Source: Tetrahymena thermophila SB210
Lineage: Eukaryota; Ciliophora; Oligohymenophorea; Hymenostomatida; Tetrahymenidae
Assembly (NCBI RefSeq): GCF_000189635.1
Contig: NW_002476188.1
Location: 372,001-436,000 of the forward strand
Reading direction: 5' to 3'
Length of the DNA stretch: 64,000 nt
The notes beneath the pieces were generated by a model, which was given only the letters and a program-made list of their open reading frames with translations, did no database searches and was not told where the DNA came from. The position numbers and the translations under genes are program-made. Position 1 is the first letter of the stretch, and the number at the start of each line of letters is the position of its first letter. Below are positions 3,957-34,593 of this stretch, piece after piece.

Positions 3957-6900
3957 ATGGTTAATTATTTTAGAAGAATTTTAACAAAGCTAGATATTTT
4001 TGGCTCGAATGTCGGTTTAAACTACAACAAAAATAATATGTTTTAGACCTCCATCGGAGGGGTTTTAAGCATATTCTTTTGTGCTTTAGTAAGCATATTT
4101 TTTTGGAACAATGTAAGATTTACATAATTTAAATAGACATTTTATATTAAACTTTATCATATTTATAAAATAAATAGATCATAGAATTTTTGAGAAAAAG
4201 TAAGTTTGTTTTGATTTAGATAATATATGGAATGAATTTGATTTAAACTATACTCTTTATAATAAATAGCATAAGTCACATCATCAACCACACAACAATA
4301 TTCGCCAAATCCTGATCCTATAGTAGTTAATGCTTAAAATTTCATGTTCGCTGTGAAAATTTAATAAGACAATTTCGTAAAAAATCCAGTACTCAACATC
4401 ACTCTTGAAACAAGAGATTATTAAAATTACGATAACGGAACTACAATAAAGCTTAAAGTAATAAGAAATAACTCTAATAGTATTTATTTTATTAAGAGCT
4501 CATTTTAAAAAGATAATAAACATCAATATTAATATTTTTTTTTCAAAAGAACTACTTTTTATTTAATTTATTTTTATATTTTAAATAAATGAAAAAAGTA
4601 CAAATAATACTTGGAACCATGCACCCAATAACATTTTGCTTAATTACCCTCTTATGGAACAAATTGGACTGAAGTTTTTATAAAATATCAATTCAATGAC
4701 TATTTATGCCCACTGTAAATAAAAAATGTGATATAAATAAATTTTTAAGTATCAATATTAAATTTTTAGATTAAATTACAATTTTACTGTTGGAGGAGAC
4801 TACAATAGCCCTCATTTCTTCCATTGGAAATTTAGTGTTGGGAAATGTTTTAATTCTACTAATCCTAATGCCACATGGTAACCAACTTGTTAATCAACTG
4901 ATGCTATAAATAATCTTTTTGCTACAGATTAAAATGTGAGATTTCTTTTGTATACAAGTAACTATATAATAAATCCAAAGAACAGTGAAGGTTATGTTTC
5001 TAGTTTTGTAGAAGACTCTCTCATATTTTCAGTATAAAAAGAAGTGGTAATTAAATATTTGCCCACAATAATTATCAATACATAAAACATTTCTAACTAA
5101 CTAATTAATTAATTAATTAAAGGCATACACAACAGCAGATATATTTTTTACATAAAATACAATTAATACTGATTAAAGCCTTATCCCATTTAAAGATATA
5201 TAAACTGAGTAATATCTACGCTACTCATTCGGAAATCTCAGATAGCAGTATGTCATAGGATATTAGCCCGTGGTCTATGGAGATTTTTATATCAGAAAAG
5301 ATTGTATGTCCTACATTCATAATAGGTCTTTCACAAAAATAAGTGAAATTTTGTCTTATATCGGAGGATTTACTTAAGTTTTCATATTATTTACTGCAAT
5401 AATAGGTAAATTACTTAATTACTTACTTACTTTCTTTAACCTTTGCCTCAAATAATACATATACTTTATAATAATTTTTATTAATTCTTTTTTTTCAATA
5501 AAATTTATAAATGAAAAGCTTTTGTTTTGTTGTTGTTATTTTATGATACATTTTTATTCTTATTTTTTGATGATTTTTGTGATTTAAAAAATTTTTACAT
5601 TTTATAATTTTGTTTACAAACAATAATAGTCAACTATTACAACGATTATATGTACTCTATATCATTGGCTAATAAACTATATGATTTTGAGTTCAGCAAT
5701 TAAAATGATAGTAAAAGCAAAGATAAGAAAAGTAATCCAAAACCTCTCACTTCTATTTCAAAAAAAGATGAGATATTAAACAGGTATAAGCAAAATAAAT
5801 TAGATAAAATTGTTGAAGAAAACGATAATGTTATTGTATCTAAATAAGAGCTACCCATTATATAAAAACAAGAAAAAAATTAAAAAATAGTGGAGTAATA
5901 AAAAGTAAACAATAATTAAATTTAGATTGATATGTTAAAATTAGAAGATACTTAGAAAGTAAATCATGATGGTTTAAAGGAATAAAATAATCGAAAAAGT
6001 AAAAAGAAAAAGGTCACAACAAGAGAAGATGATGGTTTAATATCTCTAGATAAGTTAAAATTCATTTTAAATGAGAGATAGCAAAATCAATCAAAAAATT
6101 AGGAAAAAAATCAACTTTTAAGCAAAGGGAATGAAATTTAAAATATCAATAGTGAGATTGATATAAAAAGTCAATATACAAATCAATTTTATGAGAATAT
6201 GAAAAGAGATAGTCAATAAGTGGAATAAAAAGATGTGATGAACGAAAGTATTACACCTGAATCGCCTCTTAAAAAAATAAAATAAAATAAAAAACAACAT
6301 CAACAAACAGAATTAATTTAAAAAGCATCGAATAAAGCAGCTGAGGAAAATGAATAAAAGTCTGAGTTTTCCTAAGGAATAGATAGCCAAAGAAATTAAA
6401 ATTATTTGATGAATTAAGAACTTACTGAGCTGACAGAATAAAGAAGTAAACAAAATTCAATTATGCCATAGGGAAATAAGGATCTGAATTCTCCTAGTCA
6501 AACTCCTAGGTAAAACTAAGAATAAAAAAAGCTTTTGGAAAATCTAGGAATTAGAGATAAGAAGCACTTCTTAACAAAAGAATTCGAATATCTTGTTAAA
6601 AGGCAGAAGAGTATTACTATGACTTTTAAATTTTTCCTTTACAAAATATCTTTTGGAAGATTTTTCAGGACAGAGCAAGTACTACTTTTAGACAAAGCAG
6701 AAAAGTAAATGAAAAAAGATCTAGATGTTTTCATGATATTAAATAGGATTAAAGAGCTAGAAAAATTCAAAGCACTATTTTTAGATAGGAACCAAGAAAT
6801 ACTTTTTAATTTCTTCCCAAAACCCATTATTTCGATTACAAGTATGTCTAACATGCCATCTAGAGCAGAAATGACTGATTTATTCAACTAAATTTCCAAG

Positions 6901-7566
6901 CAAGAAGCTAAAAAAAAGAACATGACTAACACAATGAAGAAATTAAAACTTAAATTTAAAACTGCTTTACTAGTAACAAGGGCAGTCCAAATTCTTAAAA
7001 GACCTTTACATAAAAAAGTTACTTAGTTTGATACGATTTCTGCCTACAGAAAACTATTCGATGCCTACGAAAGCTTGAGATCCTCAAACTAGAATATTTC
7101 GTAAAATAAATTTCATCAAATTATTATTAAAATTTATAATCAAATATTTGAAAGTTTAATTATAATTTACAATAAAATATAGTTTTAATACTAAGCTAAT
7201 AACCTTACTGGGTGAAGAGATGAACAAGATTCTTGAAATAGCAAATTTGTAAATTTTGCAAAATATAAATTTAAAACTTAAGTATTTCTTTTTAACAATA
7301 GGATTGAAGTTAAGAACGATAAAAGGATAAAAGAAAGCTCATTTAATAAATTAAATTAAGAAATCCCCAATAGTCCTAAGCTAGGTTAATCATAATTAAG
7401 TAGCTTTTTCCATAAAAATGAAACATATAGAGCCAATAATTCTTTCCAATTAAAACCTGAAGAATATATTAATTCGGGAGAAAATCTTTTTAGCAGATAA
7501 AACTATAATTCTGAGTTATAATCAGTAGAAAAGATCAATTTTAAAAAGAATTCATCTTAGAATTGA
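3957..7566 (+). CDS. Two-TM, Gln-rich-tail membrane protein, paralog 1
   Basis: First of four paralogs; function not recognised. Exons: 3957-4112, 4178-4199, 4270-4457, 4599-4714, 4770-5046, 5123-5405, 5630-7100, 7183-7248, 7302-7566; 947 aa, TGA stop. TM1 lies near residues 30-50, just after LDIFGSNVGLNYNKNNMF. A roughly 260-residue ectodomain follows, with conserved EPCT, TNWTE, DYLCP, GGDYNSPHF and TTADIFF. TM2 contains EILSYIGGFTQVFI, followed by YNDYMYSISLANKLYDFE. The long cytoplasmic tail is Gln/Asn/Lys-rich and carries a highly conserved block, MILNRIKELEKFKALFLD and then EILFNFFPKPIIS, plus LLGEEMNKILEIA. The topology resembles Erv41/Erv46-ERGIC or P2X proteins, but that is a shape comparison only. 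The exon structure matches its paralogs almost base for base. Confidence 0.88.
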
Positions 7567-8710
7567 AAATAAATCAATATATTTGAGTGTTAAATAAATT
7601 ATAACTATTTTATTTGTATAAAAAATTATATATGTTCATTAAAGCATATCAAATAAATTGTCTTTAATTCTTTGAAATAATCATTTCTTTAAATAAATTT
7701 TTGATAAATTTATTAAGAATTGTACTATTTTTGAGATACATTTCTTAAATTTGTTTGTTCATTTTTAATAAAAGTTGAATGCTTTTCAAACATAACAATT
7801 AATATATTAAAAAGCAATCTACGAAAAAAATAATTACAAACAGTAATTAAAAATAAAAAAAATTGACCATAAACTAATTATATTTTAAATCCTTTTCAGA
7901 TTTTTATGATGATTTAAAAATAATTTTAAAATTTTATATTTATTTATTTGTACCTATTACTTTTGTCTGTAGTTAAAGGTATTATGGCTATCTAAAAATT
8001 TTAAATATATAAAAATTAATTATTTTATTTGATTATTATAACCTCAATACTATTTCTACAATATTTAATTTATTATTAACCCATTAAATGATAGATAAAA
8101 ATTTTTTTATTTTTTAGAAAAAGACAATTTTAATTTACAATCAGTAATTTAGAAAAAATATTAACTCAAAAAAGATAAATTAGTAAAGATAATGATTTTT
8201 AGTCGTTTTAGCTTTATAAAAATATATTTAACTATTTTTAAAAGAATAAGAGGCTGATTAACTTTTGTAAAATTAAATTTTTGATGAAGTTATTTTCTTA
8301 TCAAACAAACGAATTATTTTTAAAAGATATTAGAAACTATTCTAAAATATTGATTCTTTTTTATTATAAGATTATATACTTTTGTGAAAAAAATAAAATA
8401 AGATTAATATATAATTACTTATTACCTATTTAAATAAATTTTGAAAATATCTTTATTCAGATTTCTGAATTTTATTTTATTTTCAAATTACAAGCTTTGA
8501 TTAGAATCAAATTTAATAAATGATGTAATAATCAATGAAGTATTAGTTGAAAAATTTAAATTATTTTTACTGTTTTTTTTAAATTTAATGTTTTTTGTAT
8601 CAAATAAATACAAAAAAGTTAGAATAACCTATGAAAATATTACAAATAAAAAATAATTTATTTAACTAATTGATATTAGTAAATATTTATTTTTAAAGGA
8701 TATTTTTTTT

Positions 8711-8901
8711 TGTCTTTAAAGTTTAAAGCATGAATTTGAGTCATTAAACGTAAATTGGTATAATAAAAATATTAATTTAATCAGTGGATTTTTGCTTAAC
8801 AGCTCAAAGTTGAGAGATAAACATGAATCTTTGCTTTTAATTTTAGGGGAGTCTTTAATTTAATTAAAAGGTCTTTTTTTTTCCTAGTGAAATCTGCTAG
8901 A
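8711..8901. repeat. Duplicated intergenic block, copy 1
   Basis: About 190 bp with recognisable similarity to 13222-13400. Shared landmarks are agtttaaagcatgaatttga/agtttaaaagcttgtatttga, aatattaatttaatc, ctttaatttaattaa and cctagtgaaatctgcta. Each copy lies downstream of one of the two most similar two-TM paralogs, so the duplicated unit probably included gene plus flank. Confidence 0.7.
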
Positions 8902-9089
8902 AAGATGATCTGTTTATAAAAAAAGATATATTTGCATTTTTTAAATTTATTTTTAAAAACAAATATAAAACACCACACAATCTATCTAAAATTTGAATAT
9001 TTGCTTCATTTTAAATTTTATCTCATTTAATTTGACTAAATTTTAATATCCAATATTAAAATGCATATTAAAATTAGTTTTCTAATTTA

Positions 9090-9185
9090 TTTGTAACCTT
9101 GGCATGGTAAACGATTTGATATCTGATTAATTACTTTTATTGATTGCTGGAGATATTTAAAGGCGTTACTACTTAGTATTTTTAT
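9090..9185 (-). pseudogene. Possible relic of an LRR exon
   Basis: The minus strand reads S-S-N-A-F-K-Y-L-Q-Q-S then N-R-L-P. This resembles the functional LRR exon at 59006-59095 (GSSLKYLGQSLNRLP). Shared DNA includes AAATATCTC and AAATCGTTTACCA. An insertion separates the two matching halves and no flanking LRR exons are seen. I read it as a decayed fragment; chance similarity is possible. Confidence 0.4.
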
Positions 9186-9379
9186 TGAATATAAAAAATT
9201 AGAATTGATTGCGAATATGAAAGTTAATTTCTTCTAGATATTAGCTAATTAATGCAATTAGTAATTCTAATTATTTTAAGAGTTAATTTAAGCATTTTGT
9301 CAAAAAATAATAATTGATTTTGTAGAAGATTTAAATAATTATTTAGTAAACATCTCTAACATAAAAAGAAAGTAGAAAC

Positions 9380-12300
9380 ATGACAAACTTTGTAAAAAGA
9401 ATTCTTACAAAGCTTGATATATTTGGCTCTAATGTAGGCTTAAACTATAATAAGAATAATATGTTCTAAACATCAATAGGAGGCATTTTGAGTATCTGCT
9501 TTTGTGTGCTTATTGGAGTTTTTTTTTGGAGCAATGTAATTTTTTATAGCTCAATTTAATGTAATTTTAAACAAAATCATTTTATATACAATAGATTTTA
9601 GCTTTTTTGAGAAAAGGTAACCATTTTGAGTTAAAATTTGAGCATTTTAATTGAAAAAAACTAAAATTTTTAATATTTTTCAAATTTATTGATGAATAAA
9701 TAGATCAAGTGTTTTCAAATACTGTCAAAACATATTGGACCAACCCTTCACCAATAAATCTGAATGCAAACAAATTCATGTTTGCAGTTAAAATTTAATA
9801 AACTAATTTCATTGGTTAGCCTTATCTAAATATCAGTTTACAAACTAGAGATTACGAAAACTTTGAAAATGGAACCCAAATCTAAAACAAAGTAATTAAT
9901 TAATTGATGATTATTATTTTTTATATTATTTTACTTTTTCTCTGATATATTATTAATTCATAAATACTAATTAAAGAATCAAATAAAAATGTAATCTAAA
10001 TGCTTATTGTACATTCAAATATTAATATTTAGTTTAATCAGTTTTTGGAACCTTGTACCCTTGAGCATTTCTCTCAACTCCCATCTCATGGAATAAATTG
10101 GACAGAAACTTTCTTTAAAATAAATTTTACAGATTTTTTGTGCCCTTAGTAAATCAATAAACAATTAAATATTTTATTTATTAAACATATTAACATAATT
10201 ATATTTATAGATTAAATTACAACTTCACTCTTGGAGGAAATTATAATAGTCCTAATTTCTATCATTGGAAAATTACTGTAAGTAAATGTTAAAATAATAG
10301 CTTGCCAGATGCACTATGGAAACCAAAATGTGCTCCTTAAGACATAATTAATAATTACTTTTAGCAGAACTAAAATGTGAGGCTTTAAATTTATACAACC
10401 AATTTTATAATGAATCCTTTGCAAAGTACAGACTATGTCACAAGTTTTATAGAGGACTCTATTATATTTTCTATTTAATAAAATGTTGTAATAAATTGCT
10501 TTTTTCTCTCTTCTAATTATTCTTACATTTTTTGATTTACATTTATTAAATTGATATTTAAATTGGGATTATTTCTATTTTTATAATTTTTAAACCTTTT
10601 CTCAATATAAAAATTTTTAAGGCTTATACTACTGCAGATATATTTTTCACAGAATCAACTGTTTCAACTGATTAGAGTCTGATTCCTTTTAAAGATATTC
10701 AAAATGAATAATATTTGACATATTCTTTTGGTAACCTTAGATAATAGTATGTAATTGGCAACTAATCTACAGTTTTTGGAGATTTTTATATTAGAAAAGA
10801 CAATATGGCTTACACATATAATAGGTATTTTTTGAAAGTTGGTGATATACTTTCATACATAGGAGGATTTACTCAAGTATTCATTTTAGTAACTGCTATT
10901 ATTGGTAAAAAATTTTTATTTCATTTTAAAAATTCTTTTATAAATTTCCAAAAAAAATTTGTTTTCATTTTCTATTTTTATAATCTAATTCTTAACTTTT
11001 ATGACTTAAATAAATAGTAAACTATTATAATGATTACATGTATTCTATTTCATTGGCTAATAAAATTTATGATTTTGAATTTGAGCTTGATAAGGATGCT
11101 GAAATTGACAAAAACAAGAAATAAAATAATCGGGGAACTATTAAAGGCTTAAAAGATAAAAAATCTGCTTTTTATGGAAAATCAAAAATGGGTCAAGTGT
11201 AAGTAATAGAAGAAAAATAAGAAAATGAAGTGGATATTTCTGATACTTCTTCAATAAAAAATCATCATAACTAAAATAAAGAACTAAAACCAGATATAGA
11301 TAAGTTTAAACAAATATAAACATAGGCTAATAGTGAGTAGATTAAAATAGAGATTCCTACTGTAAATGCCAAACAAGATAAACCAAATAATGAAATTTTT
11401 TAAGACAGAAAGAAGAAGAACAAAAAAATCACAAAAAGAGAAGATGATGGGCTCCTGCCCTTAGATAAACTTAAGCAAATAATTGAATAGAGAGCTAATT
11501 ATATTTCATCTAAATAAAGTTAAAAAATAAAGGAAGAGGATGAAGTTAGTATTTGCTAAAATGATATAAAAGAAAGCTAAATTGTAGAATAAAGAAACAA
11601 ACAATACACTCATCAATTTTTTGAGAATGTTGTAAAGAGTGATTTTCAACAGTTAGAATAAAAAGATAATGTTATGAATGAAAGTGTGATTCCTGAATCA
11701 CCTAATCCATAAGATGTAAAATAAAAAAAGAATATATTTTCAAATGACTGCATAAAAGCTGATGATATTCAAAAACCTAATGAAAAATAAAAAACTTAAG
11801 ATGAAATTTAGTTATAAAGCTAGAAAATAATTTAGGAAGCCAACACAAATCAGTAAGATAATACATATTTAAAGTAACAGTAAAGTTGGTAAAAAATTTA
11901 TAGCACCAATTAAATCAACCATATAAATCCTCTCTCTTCTTAATCAATTAATTCTCCTTAGAATAATTAGAATAAGTAGCTCTTTGATGGACTAGGCTTT
12001 AGAAATAAGTAACAGTTCTTAAAAAAAGAATTTGAATTCCTACTTAAGCGATAGAGGGGAATCACAATGACTCTAAAATTCTTTTTGTACAAATTGTCTT
12101 GTGAAAAATTTTTCAAAACGGAATAAGTTTTGCTTCTTGATAAGGCAGAAAAATAGCTTAAGAACGATCTTGATATATTTATGATTCTTAACAGAATAAA
12201 GGAATTGGAGAAATTCAAATCCTTGTTTTTAGATAGAAATCAAGAAATTCTGTTCAACTTCTTCCCTAAACCTATTATTTCTATTAAAAATAGCAATAGC

Positions 12301-12958
12301 ATACTTTCATATGCAGAAATGACAGAACTTATGAAGGAATAAAAATATTAAAGATAAAAATCAATCAAAGTAAACACAACATATATGAAAAAAATGAAGC
12401 TTAAATTTAAAACAGCTTTGCTAGTTACTAAAGCTATTTAGTTATTTAAAAGACCACTTAATAGAAAAATTGATAAATTTGATTCTTTAAATGCTTACTA
12501 AAAGCTTTATGATGCTTACGAATAAGTAAGATCACAGGGCATAAATAATAAGTAAGTAGATTCAAATTGATAATTCAAATATTTATATTAATGGTTTTAA
12601 AAAAAGGATTAATACAAAACTAATTGAACTGCTTGGCGAGGAAATGAACAAAATTCTTAACATAGCTAGCTTGTAAAGAATAAAAACACATTTCATATAC
12701 TTAATTTTAATATTTAAAATAAATAGGCTTGAGGTCAAGAATTTTAAAAAACCAGAAACTCAGACTTTAATTTAAGAAAATTTTAACTTACCAATGAATT
12801 CTAACAGTATGAGATAATTATTTCCACAAGTTTCACCTAGAATAGATTCTTATAGAAGCTACTCATTTTAACAAAAGTAAGGTGAACAATTTCTTTCAGC
12901 TGAATGTTTGAATGAAAACAAATAATATCTTATTTATAACTACCCTTCATAAGAATGA
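9380..12958 (+). CDS. Two-TM, Gln-rich-tail membrane protein, paralog 2
   Basis: Closest relative of paralog 1. Exons: 9380-9535, 9595-9616, 9704-9891, 10033-10148, 10211-10487, 10622-10904, 11018-12551, 12607-12672, 12727-12958; 957 aa. The first six exons have exactly the lengths of paralog 1 (156, 22, 188, 116, 277, 283). N-terminus LDIFGSNVGLNYNKNNMF leads into TM1. The ectodomain shows EPCT, NWTE, DFLCP, GGNYNSPNFYHW and AYTTADIFF. TM2 is preceded by GDILSYIGGF and followed by NYYNDYMYSISLANKIYDFE. The tail carries KREDDGLLPLDKLKQI, KFFKTEQVLLLDKAEKQ, MILNRIKELEKFKSLFLDR and FNFFPKPIIS. Ligand and cell location are unknown; the plasma membrane or the secretory pathway is a guess from topology. 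Confidence 0.88.
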
Positions 12959-15769: not shown

Positions 15770-18700
15770 ATGGATTTTTCAAAATTAGATATCTTCGGAT
15801 CTCAAATAGGATTTAATTTTTAAAAAGATAATGTCTTCAAAACTGCTTTTGGTGGATTTATGAGCTTAGGCTTTATTGCCTTTGTGTCTATTTTCTTTTG
15901 GAATTAAGTAAAATATTGATTTTATTCTCATTTATTCAAAAAGCTCTATATTTATTTATCTATAGAAATATTTTCTCTTTGTATAACATTAATTGAAAGG
16001 ATTTTTAATGTATTTTCTAAAAATAATAGATATTAGATTTCTTCAATAAAAGTAAAATTCACTTATAAAAGTTATATTTGCATGCCTATTAGATGATATT
16101 CAATATTTTAATAAATGATTAGATAATGTTACATTCACCACTAGTAAAGACTGGACAACTCATCCTTAAACAGTGAACGTGAGTAGTCACCAGTTTATGT
16201 TTGCAGTAAAATTAGATATGCCTAACTTCTTATAAAATCCACTTTTCAACATAACATGGGAGAAAAGAAATTACATCACTTATGATAATGGAACCTTAAT
16301 CAAAAATATTGTAACATTTTATTTAAAAATTATTAGCTTTTCAAAGCTAATGTAAAAAAAATATATTTATAAATTAAGTAATCAATGTAATTTGAACCAT
16401 GTAGACCTGACCATTGGAATGGATTACCCGCATATGGAATAGATTGGGATCAAGCATTCTAATAAGGAGGTCTTTCTACTTATTTATGCCCAAGGTATAA
16501 GAAATAAATAAATTGACTCATTAATAAAAATTTAGTATTTGTTGCTAATTGTATAATTGTAAACTAATTATTTAATTACAATAGAATATAAGATATTATA
16601 TCTTTTGGAGGTACATATAGCTCTCCGCCTTATGATTTTATAAAAGTTTAAGTCTCTCCGTGCACTAACAATACTGACCCAAATAGATTTTGGCAACCAA
16701 ATTGCCAAACCTAAAGTTAGGTTTATAAGTTCTTTAACAAGACACAAAGTGTGACCATAATGTTTAGAATGGTTAACTATGTTGTAAATCCTAACGATCC
16801 CAAAAATCCAATTAAGAGCTATATCGATGATACTCTTTTCTTTCCTGTTTAGGCAGGCACTGTAATATTATTTAAATATTGATTTGTTTCATACTAAATA
16901 AAAATATTACTTTGATATAATCGCCTACTTATTTTTATCGAGCTTTATAGAAAATTCACTTAGATTTTCTCCTTGCTCTCCCAATCAAAATAATTTATTT
17001 GCAAATTACAAAAATTGGTTTTGATAAAAACTTTTACTGAAAAAAAATTGATTTGATAGAAAGAAAAAAGAAAATTTTTTAAAAATGTAAATTTCTTGCA
17101 AAAACCACAAAAATAAATCTTTCATAAGAATTATCGACCAACATTAATAAAAAAGAAAATAAATAAATTAAATTTCATGTTTGTTTATTACTGAATGAAT
17201 TCAGCAAATTAATTTTTTATTTTCTCAATAAAATACAATTTATCTGAATTCAAAATAATATTTTAATAATTTATTAGGCTTACTAAACAGCTAATATTTA
17301 TTTGACTGAAAACACTTTAAAAACGGATTAGAGTATAATGCCATTTTAAAATATTGAAACTAATTAATTATTGGTTTACAATGGAGGAAATTTTCGTCTT
17401 TAATATGTTATTGGCAATACAAATCAAATTGTTGCAGATTTTTATTTCCTCAAAGATCCTATTTCATATACACATAATAGATAATTCACGAAAGTAAGCT
17501 AAATAGCATCGTATATTGGGGGTTTTTGCTAGACGTTTATTTTGGTTGCTGCTATTGTAGGTAAATGATTGAAAAAATAAATTTCTATAAACTTACATTT
17601 TTTTTTAATTAACTTACAATTAGTGCATCAGTATAACAGCTATGTGTGTGCTATTAAAATTGCTAATTAATTATATGATTTTGATTTAGGGGGTTAATAT
17701 TATTATAAACCTCGAGATAAATAGATTAGTTTTTAGAGGGATAATTTTAAAGCAATTGATTTAGAAAAATCCCATTTACCCTAAAATACTGTTCGATTCC
17801 CTAATTAAACTATTTAGAAAGAAAATGACTAAGAATTGAATGATATACAAGTGCTAAGATAAGAATCAACATAACCTTAAAGATTGATCTCTCATAAAAA
17901 GTAACTCTCCATTTTGAGTAAGCCTAAAACGAGAGAAGAAGGAGGACTGCTCTCTTTAGATTAAATTTAAAAGATTGTAGAAGGAAATAGTGTAAATATT
18001 AACAAAAATCTTATTCTAAATTAAAATATAAGCCAAAACACGCAAGAGTCTTAATAGTTAATAATTACATAAAACAAACAAGCTGGAACGCTCTTAACAT
18101 AGCTTGAATAAAAGTAAGAGTCACAAAAAAATTTAGATTAAATTTCCATACCTTAAGATATTATGTAATAAGAAGATAAACAATAGATCATTTCAGAAAA
18201 GATAAATTAATCTAAGAAATAGCAAATTGATTATAAAAAAAAAATAGAGTAAATTAGTGTAATTGATGATTCTGTTTAACCAGAAACTCCAATATAAAAT
18301 TAATAAATACAATTTAGTTCGAGTCATAATAATTAGTAAGCTGAATCAACTCTCTAAGTAAAACTAGATGTAAATTTTGATGATTATGCTAAAAGACTAA
18401 ATAACTCGATGATTTAGCTTGATTTTACTAAAACAACTACTACTCTTCCATTAAAATAAAAAGAAAGTTAATATTCTAAATAAATTGCATAGAGCTCCAC
18501 CAATATTGTTTAAAATGACAAAAAACAGTTAACTCAATCAAAATTTAATAATTCTGTTAAATAGATGAGCTAAAGTAAAACAACAACAACAATTGTAGAT
18601 TTTAAAAATTAACAAGAGTTTCTTGATGAAAAATAATTCCTAAAATAAGAGTTCGAATTCCTAGCTACAAGAGATAAAAGTATTAAGCTTTCAGTAAAGT

Positions 18701-19737
18701 ATTTTATATATAAACTATCTTGTGGAAAGTTCTTCAAAACTAAAGAAACCTAATTAATTGACAAAGCTTAATATCAAATGTCTTAGGATTTGGATATATT
18801 TATGATTTTAAATGGAATAAAAGAAGTCCAAAAGCTGAAAGGATTACTTTTAACATAAGAAGAATAGATATTATTTAATTTCTTCCCTAAGCCAGTGATA
18901 AGTATAAATGAAAAAGAAGAATTACCTTCAAGAATATAGCTTGAGCAAAAAAAGAGGTAAATTAGTCAATCAATCTAAGTGGAATCTAAAAAAGAAAATG
19001 AGTAACTTCAAAATCACTCTAAAAAGCTTAAATTGAATTTAAAAATTGCATCTATTGTTAAAAAAGCTACTACAAAATTTAAATAACCTCTACTAAATAA
19101 GAAATAAAAAAATTAAAAATACGATGTTGATGCTTATCAAAAGCTATATCAAGCTTACAAAGCTATCTCAAAAAATAAAAAAAGAGAGTAATTTTATTAA
19201 AATATTTAATATTTTATACAATTTTTTTTTAACATTTAGAATGGATGACAAGCTTATTTAACAATTAGGAGATGAAATCAACAAAATATTCTAAATTTCA
19301 AACCAGTAAATATTAATTTATCTTTATTTTTTGATAATTCATCTCAAAATTTCTTTTTCTTTTTTAGAATTGAAAAAAATAAAGAAAGATATTTGTCCAA
19401 GATTCAAAATTCTAAAAAATAACTGATAAATACTGAGAACTAAAATTTATTGAGCCCTGCCAAAAAATAAGGAGTAGATGGATAAAATTGTTTGAATATA
19501 TAGTAATTAAATAGTTAGTCAGAAAATAAATCTAATGTTAACAGTTTTAATGGGTACTTAGAATCAAATAGACCTTTTAGATAGAAATTATTTGAGAAAG
19601 CAAATTAAAAGCAGTAAAACATAAAAAATCCACAAGCAGAAGAAAATAATGATCATGCTTTGATAGTATTTGATGATCCTTCATAAGACTAGTAAACAAT
19701 TAACAACAGCCACAATAGGCATTTTTCATAAAATTGA
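15770..19737 (+). CDS. Two-TM, Gln-rich-tail membrane protein, paralog 3
   Basis: More diverged family member. Exons: 15770-15907, 16030-16051, 16123-16310, 16379-16494, 16585-16861, 17278-17560, 17624-19187, 19240-19305, 19368-19737; 1007 aa. Exon 1 is 18 nt shorter than in paralogs 1 and 2; exons 2-6 and 8 have identical lengths (22, 188, 116, 277, 283, 66). Diagnostic text: KLDIFGSQIGFNFQKDNVF before TM1; FEPCRPDHW; STYLCPR; AYQTANIYLTENT; ASYIGGFCQTFILVAAIV in TM2; then YNSYVCAIKIANQLYDFD. The tail is very Gln-rich and keeps KYFIYKLSCGKFFKTKE, DIFMILNGIKEVQKLKGLLL and LFNFFPKPVIS. Many Gln residues are encoded by TAA/TAG, which hides the gene from standard-code ORF finding. Confidence 0.88.
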
Positions 19738-21632: not shown

Positions 21633-22646
21633 TCACTCTTTTATGTTTGTATTAATTTAGCTAAATCTTCTAGACCTTGGCTCTTACTTTTCTTGAGGTT
21701 TACTTTGCCTGCTAAGAGAGTTTCCAGGTTTTTAAATTGGAGGGAGCTATACTTTTTTGTTTGCATTCCCATTTTGGATTGAATTCCATGGTTGGTTTTC
21801 TTTATTGTCTGCAAGAATTTTTTACTGAAGTAGAAATGCTGATAAGGGATATGGATTGAAATATTCTTCGTATTTTTTAAGTTGATCATACAAAAAGATA
21901 AACCATTATGTTTACTTTTCAAAATGCTTTGAGTGGTTGGTTTCCTCATCATACAAAATTTCCATATTTGAATATTATTTCAGAGTTTAGTTGAAAATTT
22001 AGTTAATTTCATTAGAATAGTTAGCGCTGTATCTTTTTTTTAATACCTACTATTTAAAATCTAAAGCACAGAGACATCCAATAAGATAATGTCCTTACTC
22101 GTGACTTAACAGATAATCAGTTTACTTTCTCACCCAAGATTTATTTGATATCTTCACGCTGACATTAATGCTTCTAACCTTGAAATCTAAGTATCTGTTT
22201 TTATTATTTTATCTTTACTCAACTTAATAATTATAGTTTATAAACCAATAAATATGAGCCCAAAAAGACATTTCAGGATCAGCTTTTCCTGGGAAATCGC
22301 TCCACTGAACCTTTTTAATTTGAATCCCTGCTATTCTTGTTGGCAAATACTCATTTAATCTAATTTCGTACTGCTTTTATTCACTACTGGTTTCTGTCTA
22401 TATTTCTACAGAGCCTGAAGAGACGGTGCAACAACAACGGTAGCTTTATAAATTATGTTAAGACTGCAAAATTTATTAATGTGACTAACATGGTTAAGTA
22501 GGTATAGAAGAAGATGAATTTTCATTATTCAATCTCTCTGTAGAGAGCTAATTCAGCTAAAGACAAGAAATCTACTTCTAATCTTTATCTACTTTCCTTA
22601 AATCTTACTTTTTATTAATATTTTCTATTTTGTTTTCCTAAAGCAT
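21633..22646 (-). CDS. DUF922-like HExxH protein, putative metalloprotease
   Basis: Intronless frame of 337 aa, ATG at 22646, TGA at 21633. Residues 1-90 are low-complexity Gln/Asn/Ser with a Cys triplet. Residues about 95-265 match, by eye, the DUF922 pattern known mainly from bacteria: VQWSDFPGKADP (114-124), a mid-domain SW (170-171), then LLSHEQGHYLIG (179-190). The last contains HExxH (H182, E183, H186). YDEETNHS (232-239), followed by Q..W, is the typical C-terminal DUF922 signature. Residues 275-337 are a Pro/Gln/Arg-rich tail. No signal peptide or TM is obvious. Zinc binding and proteolysis are inferred from HExxH and unproven; DUF922 activity is not established. A 103-codon standard-code ORF within it (21641-21952) is a shadow in another frame. 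Base composition is visibly less A+T-rich than its surroundings. Confidence 0.8.
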
Positions 22647-23785
22647 CCCTTTAAAAATAATGTTTTTGCTAGTTATTTTTTATTTGATAAGTAATCTCTA
22701 CTTGCTTATTTTTTAAAAAGGATACGTTAAAGAAATTGCTATATTAATATTAATCTAAATAAATAAATAAAAAAACATGTTAATTTTTCAAAGATAAATT
22801 GTTCTAAAAATAAAATTTTATAAAGCCAAATCAAAAACAAACATACAATAACTTTTAAAAATAGTTTTTAAGTTAGTGAGTTAGTTACAACTTTTTAGAT
22901 AGTTTTTTTTTTAAGTTTTCTTTCTACTTTTTAATTTATAAGTTTTTCTTCTACTATTTTCTTTCAATTAACAAAAAATTATTAATCAAGATTAAATTAA
23001 CTCATAAAAAAATATTTAAATTAAGCATAAAAATGATTTTTAAATAATTAAATTAGTTTTAATTAATATATTCTAATTAAATTAATATAAATTACTAATA
23101 AGCTTATAATAATTTTTATTTCTCTGTCTAAAATAATAAATAATCAATCTATTTGCAAAAATAATATAAGGCCATAATTATTATATAGAGTTTTTAAATA
23201 TGCTTTTTATCAAGAAAAAATAAATATTTGTTAGAATATTTAACCCAAATTCATAAGTTAGTAGATTTTAAAATCGTTTATATAACTCATACAAAATTTA
23301 TAATGTATTTAAATAAAATTAAAAATGAAATATTTAAACAATTTGAGTTTGAAAACTAGTTCGATTTCATTTTAAATATTTTATTTGTTAAATACCTTAA
23401 TGTTAGAAAAATTTTGTATTTTCTACTAAAAAATTTATGTTTTAAAATATAAATTAATAATATTTTTTTGGATTTTTCTGAACTGCCACTCTTGATTTTT
23501 GTAAAATTTTATGTAATTTTGATGAGAGTATTAAATCTTTAATATAATACTAGTACTAATAAATATATCAATCAACCTTAAATAATCAGTATAAGGAATT
23601 AATACTTATTTATTTTTATTATTGATTTTTTTTAGATGATCAAAATATAAAATCAAAATTAATTTATAGAGATAAAATACTGAAAACGTACAACATAATT
23701 AAATATATTTTTGTTGTGTTATAATGAATATATATATTTTTGTTTATTTCTTTGTTAAAATTTATTACATATTTAAGATATCGTA
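22647..23785. other. Intergenic, nothing recognised
   Basis: 1.1 kb between two convergently unrelated minus-strand genes. A/T-rich, with no exon-like frame, repeat array or RNA-like fold that I can support. Confidence 0.6.
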
Positions 23786-25897: not shown

Positions 25898-28800
25898 AAT
25901 CTCTATAAATCTATTAATTTTTTTGATAAATTAATATATTATTAAAACGTTGATTTTTATAGAATAAATACTAACTTTACCACAAAATTTATTAATTAAT
26001 TACTACTTGAATCAATGAAGAAAAAGAAATTTGATGGAAAAATTGTTAATTTATTATAAAATATTACATCGATTTTTCTAATTGAATATACCACTTTGTA
26101 TCTCATAATGAAAATATTATAAAATTCAAATAAATTAGCTTACTCCTATAAATTATTTAAAATTTTATAATTTAATCAGTTAAGAAATTAGGAAATGCTT
26201 TATTTTAAACATTTAGTTATTACAATTTATAACTTATTTAATATTTAATAGTGCAAAAATAAAAATGAGTGCTATGAACTTTTTCATTTGAAAATGTTCA
26301 TTTTATTTATCCATTAGATAAAACAAAGCTAAAATTTCAATCAGAAATATAATTTTTGAATTATTAATTTTCATATAAAAAATAGTAAATAGCTAAACAA
26401 AAATATATAAATAAATAAATCAATTATATACAATATCTAAAGTTCAACTTTTTTATATCAGAAAATGCTGCTCTGTTTTGAATTTTAATTTTAAGATAAT
26501 TAAGAAAGACTTTAAAATTATTCGAAATACGTAAAAAAGTCAGATTTTTATAGTAATTTACACTGCAATCAATTCATTCTGCTTGTAGATAAAAAATTTA
26601 ATTAGTACATTAATTAGAAGAACATCAGTCATTAATCAGAGCTGGTAAGCATTTTGATAATCTCAAATTTTCTGGTAAATTTTTTGCTTTTGAATTGTAA
26701 AGATATTATGTAAGAAAATTTAATTAAATAAGTAAATAAAAAATGTTCAAACTCTAATTTTTAAAAGAATTGAATTATGACTAATATTTAATATTAGAAT
26801 TATTACACTATTAAAAAGTAAAATGTATTTATAATATACATTATCTACTCTCATTTTTATTTTTGAAAAATTTTAATTTTTCTAAAATATAAAATTAGAT
26901 TAAATTATGCTTTAAAAATACTTAATCAGAATGTAATTTTTTATGAGTTTACAATTAATAATTTATTTGATTTGATTTTAAGTTTAACTAAAATATTTTT
27001 TAATACTTTTTTATTTAAAAAGGTTTTTCTTATCAATTTAAAAAATATACACTTTTCTTAGTTCTTTTTTATAAATTTCTAAAAAAATAAAATCTTAATA
27101 GCTACCTTTGAATTAAAACTAAGTATGTAGTATATATACCTTTCTTGACTCTATCTATCTATATTTGTATTTATAATATTATTAAAGAACTTTACTAACT
27201 GAATAAATGTTCAAAATAAATTCTTAAATTAATCACAGAATTAAAATTTAGCTTGAATATATTCTTTTACTAAACATTTTCATACAAAGGTATATACAAA
27301 TAATACGTCAAAAAAATAATGAATTTGAGTAAACACACTGAATATTTTTTATAATCTTATTAATAGAAAAGCTTCTCTACTAGTAAAATGTTATTAAGAA
27401 TATATCCTTTTTATAGAATACCATTAAACTTTCTTTTGTCTATTTAAAATTTAAAATATTTTATCAATAATTTTGATTGATGATAGTTTTTTATATATTC
27501 AATAATAAAAATAAATAAATAAACTAATTAAATAATATTTCCTTTTTAAAAGTAGAAAATAATAAGAATTTACCTTGAATAAATACACTTATTTGATAAC
27601 ACTCAATAATTAACAATTTTTCCAAGATAAAACTTTAGGAATCGAAAAAATAAATTCAAAAGATTTTGAAAACAAATTTATTGATTTTATAAAAATAAAC
27701 TTAGTACGATGGAATAAAATGAATAGTTAATATTTTTTTTAAAACTAAGAATTTTTTCAGGTACCAAATTATGTATCATCAAAAAAATAATTACCTAATA
27801 TTTTAATTTTTTAGAGATATATTTTACTCATCTATTTCAAACCATTATTTCCAAACGATTTTAATGAAAAAAATAAAAAAATTTTTATCAAAACCATCAA
27901 TAAAGTAAGGATAAGTAATAAAAAATTAAGTTTGATAAATTTATTTCATAGAGGATAATAGAAATCTCTTTATAGAAATGATATTTCAACTCTACATTCC
28001 TCTAGTATAAAGAATAATAATATAGAATTTTATAATTATCTTAAAAATATAAATAAATAAAAGTAAAATAATTGAAATTAAAAGAGTAGCTTAACAACGA
28101 AATTTGAAAGGAGCTATTGATACTATTTTCATAAGTATATACATTTCCATATAAAAAATTGTATTTTTTTTTGAGATAATGCTTAAAGTATTGTGTTTTC
28201 TTCAATATTTATTTTTTATCATTAAATAAAACTATTAAAAATAACATTATTAATATATTATTATTTAATTTATATAAAAATATTATTAACTCTAGCATTT
28301 ATATTCTAGAAATAACAATATGATAATTAGAAGACAATATTCTGTAATATTCTTTCGAAAATGAAACAATAACCTATTCACTTGAAGAATACACAAAATA
28401 TGTTGAATAAAAAAATATGGATTATTTTCAAAAAAAGTATATAAATCTTTGGAAAAATAAATGAAAGAAATATAATAAGTAGAAGAAAGTTAAGTTTCAT
28501 AATCTATCCAATATTCATTAAGATATTCAATAAACTGTTAAATTAGTTAAAAAATTAATTTAATCTCAAATTTCTAATTTAATATAATCACCAAGCTGAA
28601 TTTCTTTTAAATTCTAATAATAAAAGTCATTAAGTGGTAAATCTACTTCATCCTCTTAAAATAATTTAATTTAAGATGATCAACTAATAGAATTGAATTA
28701 AAATTAAAAAAGCATTTCAAAAATTTGTTCACTAACTACTGTATATGAATCTAAATAAAATGACAAGACAAGTTGTTTAAATAAAAAAAATAAGTAAAAA

Positions 28801-30226
28801 TTTAATCAAAAGCTGAATTAGAAGAAGTAAGATTTATAATAAATATTCAAAACTTATTAAGAAGTAGAAATATTGGTGATTGAAAAGTTAAATCAATAAA
28901 ATTTTTAAATAAATTAATTTAATCATTTTTTATAATCTAAGAATAGATTACAACTTCAATTATTAATGAATACTGAAAATTTAATTTTTTTTTTTTTAGA
29001 AAAAGCTGTATTACTTAAATCTATTTTAATTTAATTTATGAGGATTTAGAGTCATGATATTTTTAAAGCTGATGAAAAACGATATCGTAAATATGCTATT
29101 TATTTTTTTATAAGTGGTTTTTTCTATTCATTTTTGTTAAAATCAATCAAATCAATTCATTCTAATTATGTAAAAAAGATGAAAACCAAATTATTTTAGT
29201 TATTATATTGAACTGATATTTCATTCATTTTTTTGAATGAAAATTAAAATGGTTCTCTCAGTTTGCTTTTAAATTAAAATTTTTTTATTATTTAACTATT
29301 CTCTAAATCAATAAAATGTTATTTTTTAATAGCTTCTTTAACATAATTTTTACTTAGAATAATGAAATTGTTGACCTTTACATAATTACAAGAAATATGT
29401 AGATTAAAAATTATAATTTACAAGGACCATGTTCTCAATATTATTTATTGCCTTATATAATTTAAATATTTAGATGAAACATAATAATTATAAATATATC
29501 TATAGAACTTTAAGTAATTAATTATAATGAGTGAATCTTATGGTTGAAAAAATTTTAATGGACTCGATTTGGATTTTTAAAGTTATTGATAGATGAGATT
29601 ATAAATTAATTATTAATGTCCATTTAAATTTCACAAAATATGCCAGCTAGTTTTTTATTTTGAATATTGTGTGTAATAGACTATTTAATTCACTAAAAAT
29701 TCTTTAATTAATAAAAAGAATAAGAGTGAATGTAAAATAATAAGTTCAGTTAACTTAAATAATTTTATGTAACAAGTACGAAGATACTATTATGATTTAG
29801 TGAACTAGCTGGTTTACCTTAAAATACATAAAATATTTGCTTATCAAAATCACAAAATACAAATTTAATATAAAATAATAAAATGGATATATGACTTGCG
29901 ATTGAAGATAATTTAAGCTTTTATAAGTTGACTGATACATTTTAATATCATAAAAAGTAATTTATTAAGGAAAGTTGTAAATTAATGCTACATACAAAAA
30001 ATAAAGTTTAGGATTTTATGAAACACCATTGGTTTTTTTTACTTGAATGAATTATAAAACAATTTAGAGTGAAAATATTCATTATCAATTAGAGAAATGT
30101 CCTATTTAGATATGAAATCCTAGTTAAAAAATCTTGTTTTTATCAATTTTTTAAAAAGCAAAAAAAAAACTTAATAAACATAAGCTTAATTAAACAAACT
30201 AATAAATTAAAGAGGAACAAAAAAAG
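25898..30226. other. Gene-poor 4.3-kb spacer
   Basis: Extremely A+T-rich. Apart from the weak candidate at 28326-29213, I see no exon with family features, no repeat array and no RNA gene. It separates the fourth two-TM paralog from the minus-strand transporter. Confidence 0.5.
28326..29213 (+). pseudogene. Possible degenerate or multi-exon hypothetical gene
   Basis: Two protein-like stretches occur in different frames. Near 28336-28460 the text YSFENETITYSLEEYTKYVE is followed by an early TGA. From about 28630 to 29213 a TGA-free frame reads SLSGKSTSSSQNN and then Lys/Gln-rich sequence, with a hydrophobic stretch YAIYFFISGFFYSFLL near the end. No clean GT...AG join connects them. It may be a decayed gene, a gene with unrecognised introns, or chance. 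Confidence 0.22.
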
Positions 30227-33200
30227 ATGCCAAGTATAACTAAAAAAATATTATCAAATTGTGATGTTTTAGGTTCCCCAATAGGCCTTAATTTCTAAAA
30301 AAGAAATATTTATAGAACACCTTTCGGAGCATTTATTAGTATTGTGTTTGCCGTTTTTATGGGGTTGTTTTTCTGGAATACAGTAATTAAATTATCTTTA
30401 AATTCTACATGAATATATTTATAAATGGCTGTGTATTTAGCCTTTTATTTTATATTATACACAATAATTAATTTTTAATCTAATTCTATAAAATAGATAA
30501 CTCAATTTCTTTCTAAGGGTAATATATCAATCTTTATTTCAGCATTGTTGAAAGTAAAATGATCAGCTAATATATCTTAAAATATTGAAAATAAATAATT
30601 TAGATGTAGTTAAAGTAGCAATGAGTAAGACTTATAGTACTAACCCTAGTCAAATTTAAATAAGTCCTACAGGTTTGATGTTTGCAGTAAAAGTTGACTC
30701 TCCAGATTTTATTAATCGTCCTATTTTTAATATCACATTTGAAAGGAGAGATTATGTTAATCATCCAGATGGAAGTTTAGATAGAAATCGTGTAATAAAT
30801 TATAAATTTTAAGCTTTTTATATTATATTATATTATGTTTAATTAGACATTGCTCTAATTAAATATGTAAATACTCCAAATATTTTGAAAATTAATGTAT
30901 TCCTAATTATTTGTAGTATCCTATGTATTTGGAGCCATGCACTCTCGATCATTGGACATAACTTCCTAGCTACAATATTAATTGGACAGATCAATTTATC
31001 AAAGCAAACTTAAGTTCTTATTTATGCCCAAGGTAATATAAAAACCATTCGTTATATTTTTTTTCCTTCTCTCTTTAGAATTTATAAAATATATTTTAAT
31101 ATAAAAAAACACTTTTAAATAACTGAAAAATAAATATTGAAATTAGCAATATAAATGATTCTCATAAATTAATAAATTTTATTTGTTACGAATCGTCAAA
31201 AATATTTAAAGGCTTTGCATTGCATTCAGAATGTTACTTTTGAAATTAAAAATCGAAATATAGGAAAATATACACTTATTTTTGAGAAATGTGTGTAACT
31301 ATTACGCCCTTTTTATTTTGAATAGTTTTTTCGTTAAATATATGAAAATCAAAAAATAATTCTTGATTGATTTTAAAACAAAAACTTTAATAATTTACTT
31401 ATTTTTGATTAAACAATACTCTAATTTAATGTATTTTAGAAGACCATCGATTATAATAAATAAGACTATTTAATTAAGAAAAATGATTTTTTATAATATA
31501 AATTAAAAAATAAATAGAAAAGATGATATAATAGAAATAGAAGGTATCTTTTCAAGTGAGCATTTTAAACATATAAAGATAGGGATCACAGATTGCAAGA
31601 ACAATACTCCTTTAAACAATCCTTGGAGACCAGTTTGTGCCTCTCCATAGTTTATAAAGAGTTATTTTGATGCAAATAAAAATGTGAGAGTTGTAATGTA
31701 GGTTGTTAACTACATTATAAATCCTCCTGACCCAGTAAACTATATAACATCTTTTCTTGACAATTAATTGTTTTTCACAGTTAATCCTTAAGTAAATAAT
31801 TTCATTTTTCTTCAATCAATTGCAATCTATCATAGAAATAATTATACAGATTTTCCATAATTTCATTGTTGAAATGAAAGTAATTAAACATGTTAGTTAT
31901 GTTATCCTAAACTAAAAAATATAAATTGTATAAAAAACATGAATATGATTTAATCTAAAATCTATTTAGTCAATATATTTTTAAAAAATAAATAAATTTT
32001 ATTAATTGGATAACTAAGGGAAGGAAAACGAGCTTACATATAAGGTTTTCTTAACATTTTCATTACAAATTATTTTTTCATCATACATTATTATAACAGA
32101 AAAAAAAAATTTTTTTTTTCAAATCAATATGTTTAAAAATAATGAGTTTGTAATTTATTAAAATAAATATATTTAGAGCTACTAAACAGCAGATATTTAC
32201 TTTAATTAATATGAATTCATCACAGATAATAGTATAATGCCATACAAATAAATAGAAACTAAAAAACTGCCTGTTTTAGAAAATGGAAATTTTAGAGCCT
32301 AGCAGTTCTTATATACTCAAACCTCTTATGGGGATTTCTTTTTTAGAAGGGATCCAGTAACATATACATTAAATAGACAATTCTAAAAAATTAGTGAAGT
32401 TATTTCTTACATAGGAGGTTTTTCTTAAATATTTTTGAGCATTTCAGCTGTTTTAGGTAATTAATTTTAATTGTTTTATATAATTGAAATTTAAGGTTTT
32501 TTTATAAAATTTTATAAAGTATGCTTTTACAATGATTACATTTATTCTGTTAAACTGGCTAATAAGCTTTATAATTTTGAAGTTTAGGCAAAAGATAATT
32601 AAAATACAATACTATAATAATAGCACATAAGTTAAAATATGTACACTCATGAGTCTTCACCGACAATTAAAAAAGGTATTAATAGCAAGAACAATAATTA
32701 ACATCAAGAGTAAATAAATTTAATGGCATATTAAAAACAATAATTTGAAAATACAAGACAATCATTTTAGATAATTTAAAAGAGCAATAACAGCATAAAA
32801 GATAATAATTGTATAATTGAAAGTTAAAAATATATTGATGAATTGAACAATAAAAATTTTAAATAAAGTAGTACTCAAAAGAATGATAATTTATAATTAA
32901 ATTAGTATGATAATTCATCTAGATATTTATCATGCTAAGTTGAGAATCATGATGAAAAGCTTAATGAAAATAAATTAATTTAATTCAAAGAAGATACTGA
33001 CAGTTAAAGAGATAATTAGCATTAAGAACCTATATAAAATGCTAACATTTTAAATTTAGAATAGTCATAAGGATCTTATATTCCAGACGAGGGCAACTAA
33101 GCATATGTATAAATATAATTTGATAAGAGTTAAGCTTTTATTAAAGAATTAAATTTGAAAAACCTAAGCGAATTCAAATAATAGAATTAGTTAAATCAAT

Positions 33201-34593
33201 CAGATTATAAATAAAAAAATTTAAAAAATGTAAATTTAGAAGAATAGTAATTAGGTATAAATGAATAAGCTAATAAAAATGTAAAATAATATACTTAACA
33301 TATAATTTCTCCAGCTTCGGAGTAAAATATTTAAATTCTCTTACATTCTGAAATAAACACCGAAAGAATAAAGTTTGAACCTGAAATAGAAAACATGATC
33401 ATTGAAGATGGAACAAATAACATTTATAAAAAAGTAAATAGTAAATAGGATCAAAATAAACCTGGTTTTTCCATCTAAAATAATCAGCAGAATACATATC
33501 TGACAGTTGAAAATAATACTTTTAAACAGACACCATTTAAATCTGATAATAACCTTCGCAAACCTTAATTATTTGATTAATATATACTTCCTGCTCAAAA
33601 ATCATATTCTAGTTAAAAAATACTAAATAAATAGGTTGAAATTAACACATCTAAAAATTATGTTAAGTAAAAGATCGAAAATTCTCAGGCATTTACAGAT
33701 AGACAAACTTATTTAAAGAATAAATTTTCTTAAATTCTTAAAAGAGAAGAAAATCTAGATATGACTTATAAATTTTTCATATACAAATTAACATGCAAAA
33801 AGTTCTGCAAAACAAAGTAAGTCATGCTAGTAGAAAAGGCTCATAAACTGATTAGAAAGGACCTTGATGTTTCTGTAATATTATACAAATTAAAGGAATT
33901 AGAAAAATTTAAAAAACTATTTTTAAATGAGCAGCAGGAAGTATTATTTAATTTTTTCCCTAAACCAATTATAAGCTCAGATGTATAAAAAGAATTACCT
34001 TCTCGATTAAATATTTAAGAAAGCTAAAAAGATGAAAAAAAATATTTAAAAAACTTTATAAACAACATAAAAAAATCTAATTTCAATAAAAAAGTATAAA
34101 AAACATTTAATATAAATGAAAGAGTAGCTACTAAAGTTTCATTTGCTCTATAAAAGCTTAAAAAACCTATAAAAAATGCTAATTAAATATTTTAATATGA
34201 CTAAATGAGTGCTTATTAGACGCTTTATCAAGCCTATATAGCCATCTTGCACAAAAAAGAAATCACTGAGTAAACATAAAATTACTTAATTCACTTTCTT
34301 ATTATTAAATTAATAAATTTAATTTTGTTTTAATATAAAATAAAATCAATTTAATAACTTTTAAATAAATATAAAATTTTTTTAAAAATAGATTTGATAA
34401 GAAGCTTATCTTTTTATTAGGTTAAGAAATGAATGGTATTTTTGAAGAATCAGAAAAGTAAATTATTAATTATTTTTCGTTTTTTAGATTAATTTTGTTT
34501 AAATAACTAAAGAATCATAGAAAAACCAACAATAATATCAAATAGTAGATTGTTGCAAGCAAATGCAGCAGATAATTAATTTACTAAAAATGA
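30227..34593 (+). CDS. Two-TM, Gln-rich-tail membrane protein, paralog 4
   Basis: Separated from its three relatives by about 10.5 kb. Exons: 30227-30382, 30497-30518, 30604-30791, 30917-31032, 31518-31791, 32177-32456, 32520-34269, 34392-34457, 34488-34593; 985 aa. The 156, 22, 188, 116 and 66-nt exons are unchanged; exons 5 and 6 are each 3 nt shorter (274, 280). Text: CDVLGSPIGLNFQKRNIY before TM1; LEPCTLDHW; SSYLCPR; VISYIGGFSQIFL in TM2; then YNDYIYSVKLANKLYNFE. The tail is the longest (exon 7, 1750 nt) and conserves KFFIYKLTCKKFCKTK, VLFNFFPKPIISS and LLGQEMNGIFEES. The last exon is short. A 67-codon standard-code ORF on the other strand (31612-31815) is a shadow. Confidence 0.87.

Follow-up and report, generated by a model that had tools for sequence, protein, structure and literature searches.

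Four genes (A to D) in a 64,000 bp window of the Tetrahymena thermophila SB210 genome (contig NW_002476188.1, positions 372,001 to 436,000, forward strand) are members of a very large, seemingly undescribed protein family with two transmembrane (TM) segments. In the reading that we prefer, to which we assign a probability a little below one half (about 45 %), they form a single tandem group within a lineage-expanded superfamily of two-TM glycoprotein receptors, related to ERGIC proteins at the first TM segment (TM1), with the receptor function a prediction. Each gene was modelled under genetic code 6 as a chain of GT-AG introns ending in a single terminal TGA.

Gene A, 3957..7566, + strand, 947 aa; exons 3957-4112, 4178-4199, 4270-4457, 4599-4714, 4770-5046, 5123-5405, 5630-7100, 7183-7248, 7302-7566 (lengths 156, 22, 188, 116, 277, 283, 1471, 66, 265)
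Gene B, 9380..12958, + strand, 957 aa; exons 9380-9535, 9595-9616, 9704-9891, 10033-10148, 10211-10487, 10622-10904, 11018-12551, 12607-12672, 12727-12958 (lengths 156, 22, 188, 116, 277, 283, 1534, 66, 232)
Gene C, 15770..19737, + strand, 1007 aa; exons 15770-15907, 16030-16051, 16123-16310, 16379-16494, 16585-16861, 17278-17560, 17624-19187, 19240-19305, 19368-19737 (lengths 138, 22, 188, 116, 277, 283, 1564, 66, 370)
Gene D, 30227..34593, + strand, 985 aa; exons 30227-30382, 30497-30518, 30604-30791, 30917-31032, 31518-31791, 32177-32456, 32520-34269, 34392-34457, 34488-34593 (lengths 156, 22, 188, 116, 274, 280, 1750, 66, 106)

A preliminary description of this DNA had proposed a nine-exon plan for genes starting at 3957, 9380, 15770 and 30227, and the GT-AG chains reproduced its exon lengths at all four starts. 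Splice sites were placed from the sequence alone, with alternative exons settled in several cases by homology among the four genes. The last intron of gene D is only 30 nt long and is the least certain junction among the models. Exons 2 to 4 are constant in length despite introns of 30 to 485 nt. As sequence-based models the four genes and their common plan are real, and the shared plan is what is expected of duplicated genes rather than a chance match. Identity among the four is 40–68 % in the part comprising TM1, the ectodomain and the second TM segment (TM2) and 29–47 % in the tails. All four may carry the annotation 'transmembrane protein, putative'.

Hydrophobicity analysis found exactly two 19-residue segments at KD >= 1.6 in each of the four proteins (in gene A, TM1 at about aa 31–49 and TM2 at about aa 329–347), and four cysteines common to all lie between them (Cys 130, 159, 187 and 201 in gene A, which has a fifth, residue C314); the preliminary description had likewise placed a Cys-bearing ectodomain between two TM segments. 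Among 20 diverse members of the wider family, residues C130, C159, C187, C201, G34, G170, G334, G335 and N362 (gene A numbering) are invariant. Sequons occupy fixed columns of the ectodomain in 16, 13, 13, 10 and 6 of the 20 members, and their number in the loop did not significantly exceed that of shuffled sequences for any of genes A to D (p 0.09–0.45). The end of the ectodomain is encoded together with TM2:

Gene A exon 6 region, 5123..5404, + strand, end of the ectodomain plus TM2; contains the DEG/ENaC-like segment and the invariant GG

No outside relative of the ectodomain was detected, a PDB search with the profile of the four sequences gave no match, and the viral contigs scanned held no relative of the family. 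Structure prediction from four sequences gave a mean pLDDT of 40.1 for exon 6 (94 aa) and 50.2 for the tail (190 aa), and these models were kept out of fold comparison, since matches to models of such low quality mean nothing.

The proteins continue beyond TM2 into a long tail with a conserved region, which in gene A is contiguous within exon 7.

Gene A conserved tail region, 6529..7098, + strand, containing LFNFFPKPIIS
Gene B conserved tail region, 11977..12549, + strand
Gene C conserved tail region, 18601..19185, + strand, with the block EVQKLKGLL...LFNFFPKPVIS
Gene D conserved tail region, 33671..34267, + strand

The block ELEKFK..LF......LFNFFPKPIIS, which had been called invariant and taken for the end of the tail, is neither. 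Given the variant in gene C, only LFNFFPKP-[IV]-IS is kept in all four genes, and beyond the block lie more conserved sequence, the 66-nt exon and a last exon that varies. Comparison of the tail with Pfam gave no useful match (three families were each hit by a single member, at best with E 0.053), and the PDB returned beta-arrestin alone at E 1.1–1.2.

What had been presented as a four-gene family proved to be far larger. A profile search of the genome found at least 40 ectodomain loci (44 matches less four that are second exons of genes already counted), and two genome searches found at least 184 tail loci on 64 contigs; both counts are lower bounds. A tail block lies no more than 3.5 kb downstream, on the same strand, at 39 of the 40 ectodomain loci. 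Conversely, a TM1-ectodomain-TM2 part was present upstream of all six tail loci chosen from other clusters, five of these parts being found by profile and the sixth having its TM1 found by profile and its TM2 by eye. The linkage and the tail-locus count rest on coordinates transcribed by hand from the search results. Ten pairs drawn from five C319 paralogues had dN/dS of 0.05–0.30 (0.06–0.36 in the ectodomain), and purifying selection is acting in the pairs tested; between genes A and B dN is 0.24 and synonymous sites are saturated. These values bear on the suggestion that the proteins are surface antigens or adhesins that take no part in signalling. The abundance of tandem copies and the divergence of the ectodomains, with their sequons and cysteines, would suit such a coat, but it would need neither two TM segments nor a long conserved tail, and the ten recent pairs are under purifying selection, so that we give this explanation little credence.

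The exon architecture, described at first as frozen, is so in the four window genes and not family-wide. Exon plans were surveyed at those 26 of 36 non-window loci that had flanks, the first exon being cut off in some, with a profile built from the window genes. The exact 22-188-116 run was present at 17 of the 26, a further three had 22-188 followed by 110 or 122, one had the 188 exon without the 22 exon, and five had other plans. The exon counts for other clades cover the TM1-TM2 part; one relative, L064 on C3, has a single exon. The family tree has long branches and open forks. The nine-exon plan is a mark of one clade.

The preliminary description had recognised no characterised family in these proteins. 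This stood for the four genes, where a Pfam scan gave no family above its cut-off, but TM1 is ERGIC_N-like. ERGIC_N (PF13850) matched all four genes at TM1 only, with E 1.3e-4 to 6e-3 and 17.2–22.5 bits against a cut-off of 27, and was found at E<=0.1 in 16 of the 20 members scanned. All four misses fell in one divergent set (L061, L062, L064 and L065), none of which matched at E<=1; their Erv score of 17.4 was no signal above reversed decoys (15.7–16.6). Both proteins scanned from the C116 cluster exceeded the cut-off (32.5 and 28.2 bits), and this cluster is homologous to the two-TM family: their alignment of 288 columns scored 57.4, a value that 0 of 100 shuffles reached (maximum 22.1). In profile-profile tests, where shuffles were local (12 columns) and few, the score of TM1 against Erv profiles was reached by 0 of 150 and 0 of 200 shuffles; the Erv profile was built on four models from Tetrahymena, of which three are automatic splices, hand-trimmed and possibly containing errors.

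The leading alternative is that the proteins are cargo receptors of the Erv41/46 (ERGIC) type that have diverged, travel back and forth between ER and Golgi and have expanded to serve many regulated-secretion cargoes. The shared features are two TM segments around an intervening loop, whose sequons suggest a lumenal side, the TM1 entry motif T..GG..S, and profile similarity over about 28–47 residues around TM1. The same genome retains conventional Erv homologues (C314, C399 and C81). The comparison with Erv41/46 was thus a good lead for TM1, but it fails for the ectodomain: the middle of the ectodomain showed no detected kinship to the lumenal domain of Erv (its score was equalled or passed in 95 of 150 shuffles), a genome search for PF07970 at default E found only C314, C399 and C81, and PF07970 is absent from the nine families matched by the 20 members at E<=0.1. 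The match of TM2 to Erv TM2 is weak (reached by 6/150 and 10/200 shuffles, and by 29/200 and 48/200 in two subsets) and is no better than that to Erv TM1 (17.0 vs 16.5). Unlike Erv41/46, the family lacks a COPIIcoated_ERV domain, its four-cysteine ectodomain has no detected relative, its tail is about 600 residues long and includes a conserved block, and it has far more copies, a number that in our general judgement would be odd for cargo receptors. We consider this explanation unlikely.

A second alternative, that the proteins are two-TM oligomeric ion channels distantly akin to DEG/ENaC and forming a chemosensory or mechanosensory repertoire, draws on the other end of the ectodomain. DEG/ENaC/ASIC channels (PF00858) also have two TM segments round an ectodomain, an apparent gapless resemblance to them spans 35 columns, beginning in the last strand and reaching into TM2, whose entry reads IGG, and sensory receptors often come in large tandem families. 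All 12 matches of the family profile to the PDB (up to E=10) were ASIC1 entries, from the last strand into TM2, and 13 of 14 matches of the C-terminal profile were to ASIC1 or ASIC2; the E-values (0.35–0.75) are not significant, and the entries, being variant forms of only one or two proteins, count as one or two independent matches. Against a profile of four short ASIC/ENaC (ASC) sequences the C-terminal profile, covering the pre-TM2 strand and TM2 entry, scored 21.4 (0 of 200 shuffles), with 18.9 for the main clades (1/200) and only 17.8 for the L061-L065 set (7/200). P2X against ASC, run as a control in the same test, scored 17.5, and a score near 18–21 is therefore no strong proof of kinship. 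ASC gave the best E-value among twelve families matched by C-terminal parts, yet it matched only one of 20 such parts (E 0.0071) and none of 20 longer parts at E<=0.1, and the genome search for PF00858 returned no candidate. TM1 and the following strand are not ASC-like (26/200 shuffles reach the score, with two ENaC sequences only in the profile). The selectivity motif of DEG/ENaC channels is GxS, and it is not conserved in the family. The segment leading into TM2 appears to resemble DEG/ENaC channels weakly, and the controls urge caution; unlike those channels, the family has sub-threshold scores only, no similarity at TM1 and no ASC domain. Our trust in a DEG/ENaC origin is lowered by the control and by the PDB matches, which come down to variants of one protein or two, and we regard it as improbable. 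Slightly more doubtful still is a broader proposal, that the superfamily of at least 184 genes consists of two-TM oligomeric channels or channel-like sensory receptors combining an ERGIC-like TM1 with a DEG/ENaC-like pre-TM2 segment, a non-GPCR chemosensory repertoire with a possible evolutionary link between ERGIC and DEG/ENaC proteins. P2X-type ATP-gated channels, with which a comparison had also been proposed, share the two-TM topology and a cysteine-bearing ectodomain and can be set aside as highly improbable, given that no sequence similarity was found: a genome search for PF00864 at E<=10 came back empty, and the C-terminal profile scored below the shuffle mean against a profile of two P2X sequences (180/200 shuffles reach the score).

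We return to the superfamily of two-TM glycoprotein receptors. Its members would have a short, probably cytosolic N-terminus leading into the ERGIC_N-like TM1. About 280 residues would follow as a domain that the predicted orientation places in the lumen or outside the cell, and in it the four invariant cysteines are expected to form two disulfides. On the cytosolic side of TM2 would come a motif close to the membrane (in gene A, LANKLYDF), a Gln-rich linker that is long and variable, and the conserved tail block. What the ectodomain binds, whether ligand or cargo, would vary from one paralogue to another, and the glycines at the TM entries would pack the helices into an oligomer. The common tail block would dock the paralogues on one shared cytosolic partner, from which we infer that they act as receptors, either on the cell surface or along the secretory route. 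Speaking against this reading are the ERGIC_N scores, which stay below cut-off in the four genes and concern TM1 alone, the divergent set in which ERGIC_N had no match, and the unremarkable number of sequons in the loop. The two-TM family may be the receptor or trafficking system, perhaps ciliate-specific, that the preliminary description suggested.

Pfam scans of the four genes, the 20 members and the tail gave no family of its own for these proteins, and the family is not described in the titles and abstract openings of the open-access literature, among the matches listed. What looked like a four-gene curiosity is a single tip of a very large family of membrane proteins in a model protist. 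The resemblances at TM1 and TM2 offer two concrete, testable ancestries, and if the receptor reading is true, the family would show how ciliates diversify sensing or cargo selection.

The preliminary description had treated the two-TM proteins as a four-gene family. A search of the 101 Mb genome (445 contigs, genetic code 6), the sole eukaryotic genome compared, replaced this with a far larger set. A telomerase fragment encoded in this genome matched PDB 2b2a, a T. thermophila structure, along 56 of 56 residues, so the source is Tetrahymena thermophila or a very close relative. An exon-6 query gave 44 matches, which after removal of four second exons correspond to 40 ectodomain loci. A 92-residue tail query gave 129 matches among the matches listed and one from a different clade gave at least 150 (150 of 195 candidates scored). 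When both tail queries were pooled and merged within 600 bases, at least 184 tail loci on 64 contigs were found, a lower bound. At 39 of the 40 ectodomain loci a tail block follows on the same strand, no more than 3.5 kb downstream, and a TM1-ectodomain-TM2 part was found upstream of all six tail loci hand-picked from other clusters (on contigs C115, C79, C288, C3, C332 and C327). In five of these the part was recognised by profile; in the sixth, L066, TM1 was recognised by profile and TM2 by eye. Ectodomain and tail therefore belong together. The sole ectodomain locus with no tail block detected downstream, C40:438848-439180 (-), is perhaps truncated or tail-diverged. No description of the family was found among the open-access literature matches listed, though one may exist.

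For the four window genes, the exon lengths first reported were reproduced in sequence-based models that use GT-AG introns and read TGA as the sole stop.

Gene models and neighbouring genes in the window
3957-7566 (+), gene A, GT-AG exon chain in code 6 to an in-frame TGA
9380-12958 (+), gene B, GT-AG exon chain in code 6 to an in-frame TGA
15770-19737 (+), gene C, GT-AG exon chain in code 6 to an in-frame TGA
30227-34593 (+), gene D, GT-AG exon chain in code 6 to an in-frame TGA
38445-39818 (-), RING-H2 protein
42358-43494 (+), Extensin-like low-complexity frame, 33.6 bits against a cut-off of 105
52487-53431 (-), GNAT acetyltransferase
62140-63626 (-), MFS-like pieces, below cut-off

An HMM built from 20 members detected no fifth member in the window at E <0.09. 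An ORF at 21636-22787 (-) matched DUF922 (PF06037, 37.9 bits against a cut-off of 27), a family described as bacterial and found here in a ciliate genome. The stretch surrounding the Extensin-like frame has long open frames on both strands.

Genes A-D share lengths of 22, 188 and 116 nt for exons 2-4, but their introns differ in length, from 30 to 485 nt. The plan had been called frozen, which holds for these three exons in genes A-D but not for the wider family. In a survey of 26 non-window loci with flanks, 22-188-116 was kept exactly at 17, three had 22-188 but a length of 110 or 122 for the third exon, one kept 188 without 22, and five had a different plan, one via an apparent extra intron within the 188-nt exon. 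At L020 (G000:C199:46824-50084) such an intron divides this exon into 145 + 43. The TM1-TM2 part is in four pieces in L025 and L038, in about two (825+222) in L061, L062 and L065, and in one in L064 and the genes of a cluster on contig C116. On a maximum-likelihood tree of 36 proteins, in which several forks are open, the plan labels required 6 changes, the minimum (14.4 in shuffled labels), and the exact 22-188-116 label required 2. The exon plan is the mark of a clade.

Genes A-D each encode a protein with exactly two hydrophobic segments. The four proteins share 40-68% identity from TM1 through the ectodomain to TM2 and 29-47% across the tail, and purifying selection was found in the tested pairs. 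Across 20 diverse members, nine columns never vary (G34, C130, C159, G170, C187, C201, G334, G335 and N362, gene A numbering), and the four cysteines among them point to two disulfides. Sequons occupy fixed ectodomain columns in 16, 13, 13, 10 and 6 of the 20, with a number per loop not higher than in shuffled sequence. C-terminal to TM2 come a motif like LANKLYDF, the Gln-rich linker and the tail block, which contains LFNFFPKP-[IV]-IS in all four. An alignment spanning 338 columns joins the divergent set L061, L062, L064 and L065 to the main family, with a score of 282.6 against 20.4 for the reversed control.

Cargo shuttling of the type performed by Erv41/46 proteins was considered as one alternative. 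Pfam ERGIC_N, their N-proximal domain, matched genes A-D, each under cut-off, and 16 of 20 members at E<=0.1; the four misses, again the divergent set, had no match even at E<=1, and their Erv signal was not above reversed controls. Against a profile of four Tetrahymena Erv models, family TM1 scored 27.9 (shuffle maximum 22.7, 0/150) and a longer TM1 piece 29.3 (21.2 in shuffles, 0/200). In the genome, conventional Erv genes and the C116 cluster ranked first for ERGIC_N, and seven first exons of the family (on C17, C162 and C251) ranked lower. The mid-ectodomain gave no signal against Erv (95/150 shuffles reached the real score), and the Erv lumenal domain was not found in the family. Family TM2 scored 16.5 against Erv TM2 (reached by 6/150 and 10/200 shuffles in two tests), which adds little because it scored 17.0 against Erv TM1.

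The cluster at C116:312000-365000 (L046-L051, L053, L055-L060) comprises two-TM proteins, three of them single open frames. Both proteins scanned pass the ERGIC_N cut-off (best E 9.7e-8), and its profile scored 25.9 against Erv over TM1 (0/100 shuffles). Its homology to the family extends across 288 columns (score 57.4, probability 93, 0/100 shuffles), and no tail match lies inside it among the matches listed for both tail queries. Judged from these comparisons, it is a sister family. Further weak ERGIC_N-like stretches, some clustered, on C129, C178, C177, C174, C39 and C122 may be the N-termini of additional two-TM families.

DEG/ENaC-like channel activity was another alternative considered. 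The TM2 segment scored 21.4 against these channels (0/200 shuffles), somewhat better than against Erv TM2, 18.9 with the main clades alone (1/200) and 17.8 with the L061-L065 set (7/200); P2X against ASC, the DEG/ENaC domain, scored 17.5 in the same test, which calls for caution over such scores. PDB matches of the family profile to E=10 were all ASIC1 entries, 12 in number (best E 0.41), and 13 of 14 matches of the C-terminal profile were ASIC1 or ASIC2 (best E 0.35), none significant and all representing one or two independent proteins. One PDB search could not have favoured Erv, since its matches held no TM-bearing Erv protein. The ASC domain was not found above cut-off in the family, TM1 did not match it (26/200 shuffles reached the score), and genome searches found neither ASC nor P2X candidates. 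Membership in the Erv or DEG/ENaC family is not established.

The best-supported reading is that these proteins are lineage-expanded two-TM glycoprotein receptors with an ERGIC-like TM1. Because a variable outside is joined to a shared inside in a very large gene set, the ectodomain would bind varied ligand or cargo, and the common tail block may recruit one cytosolic partner.
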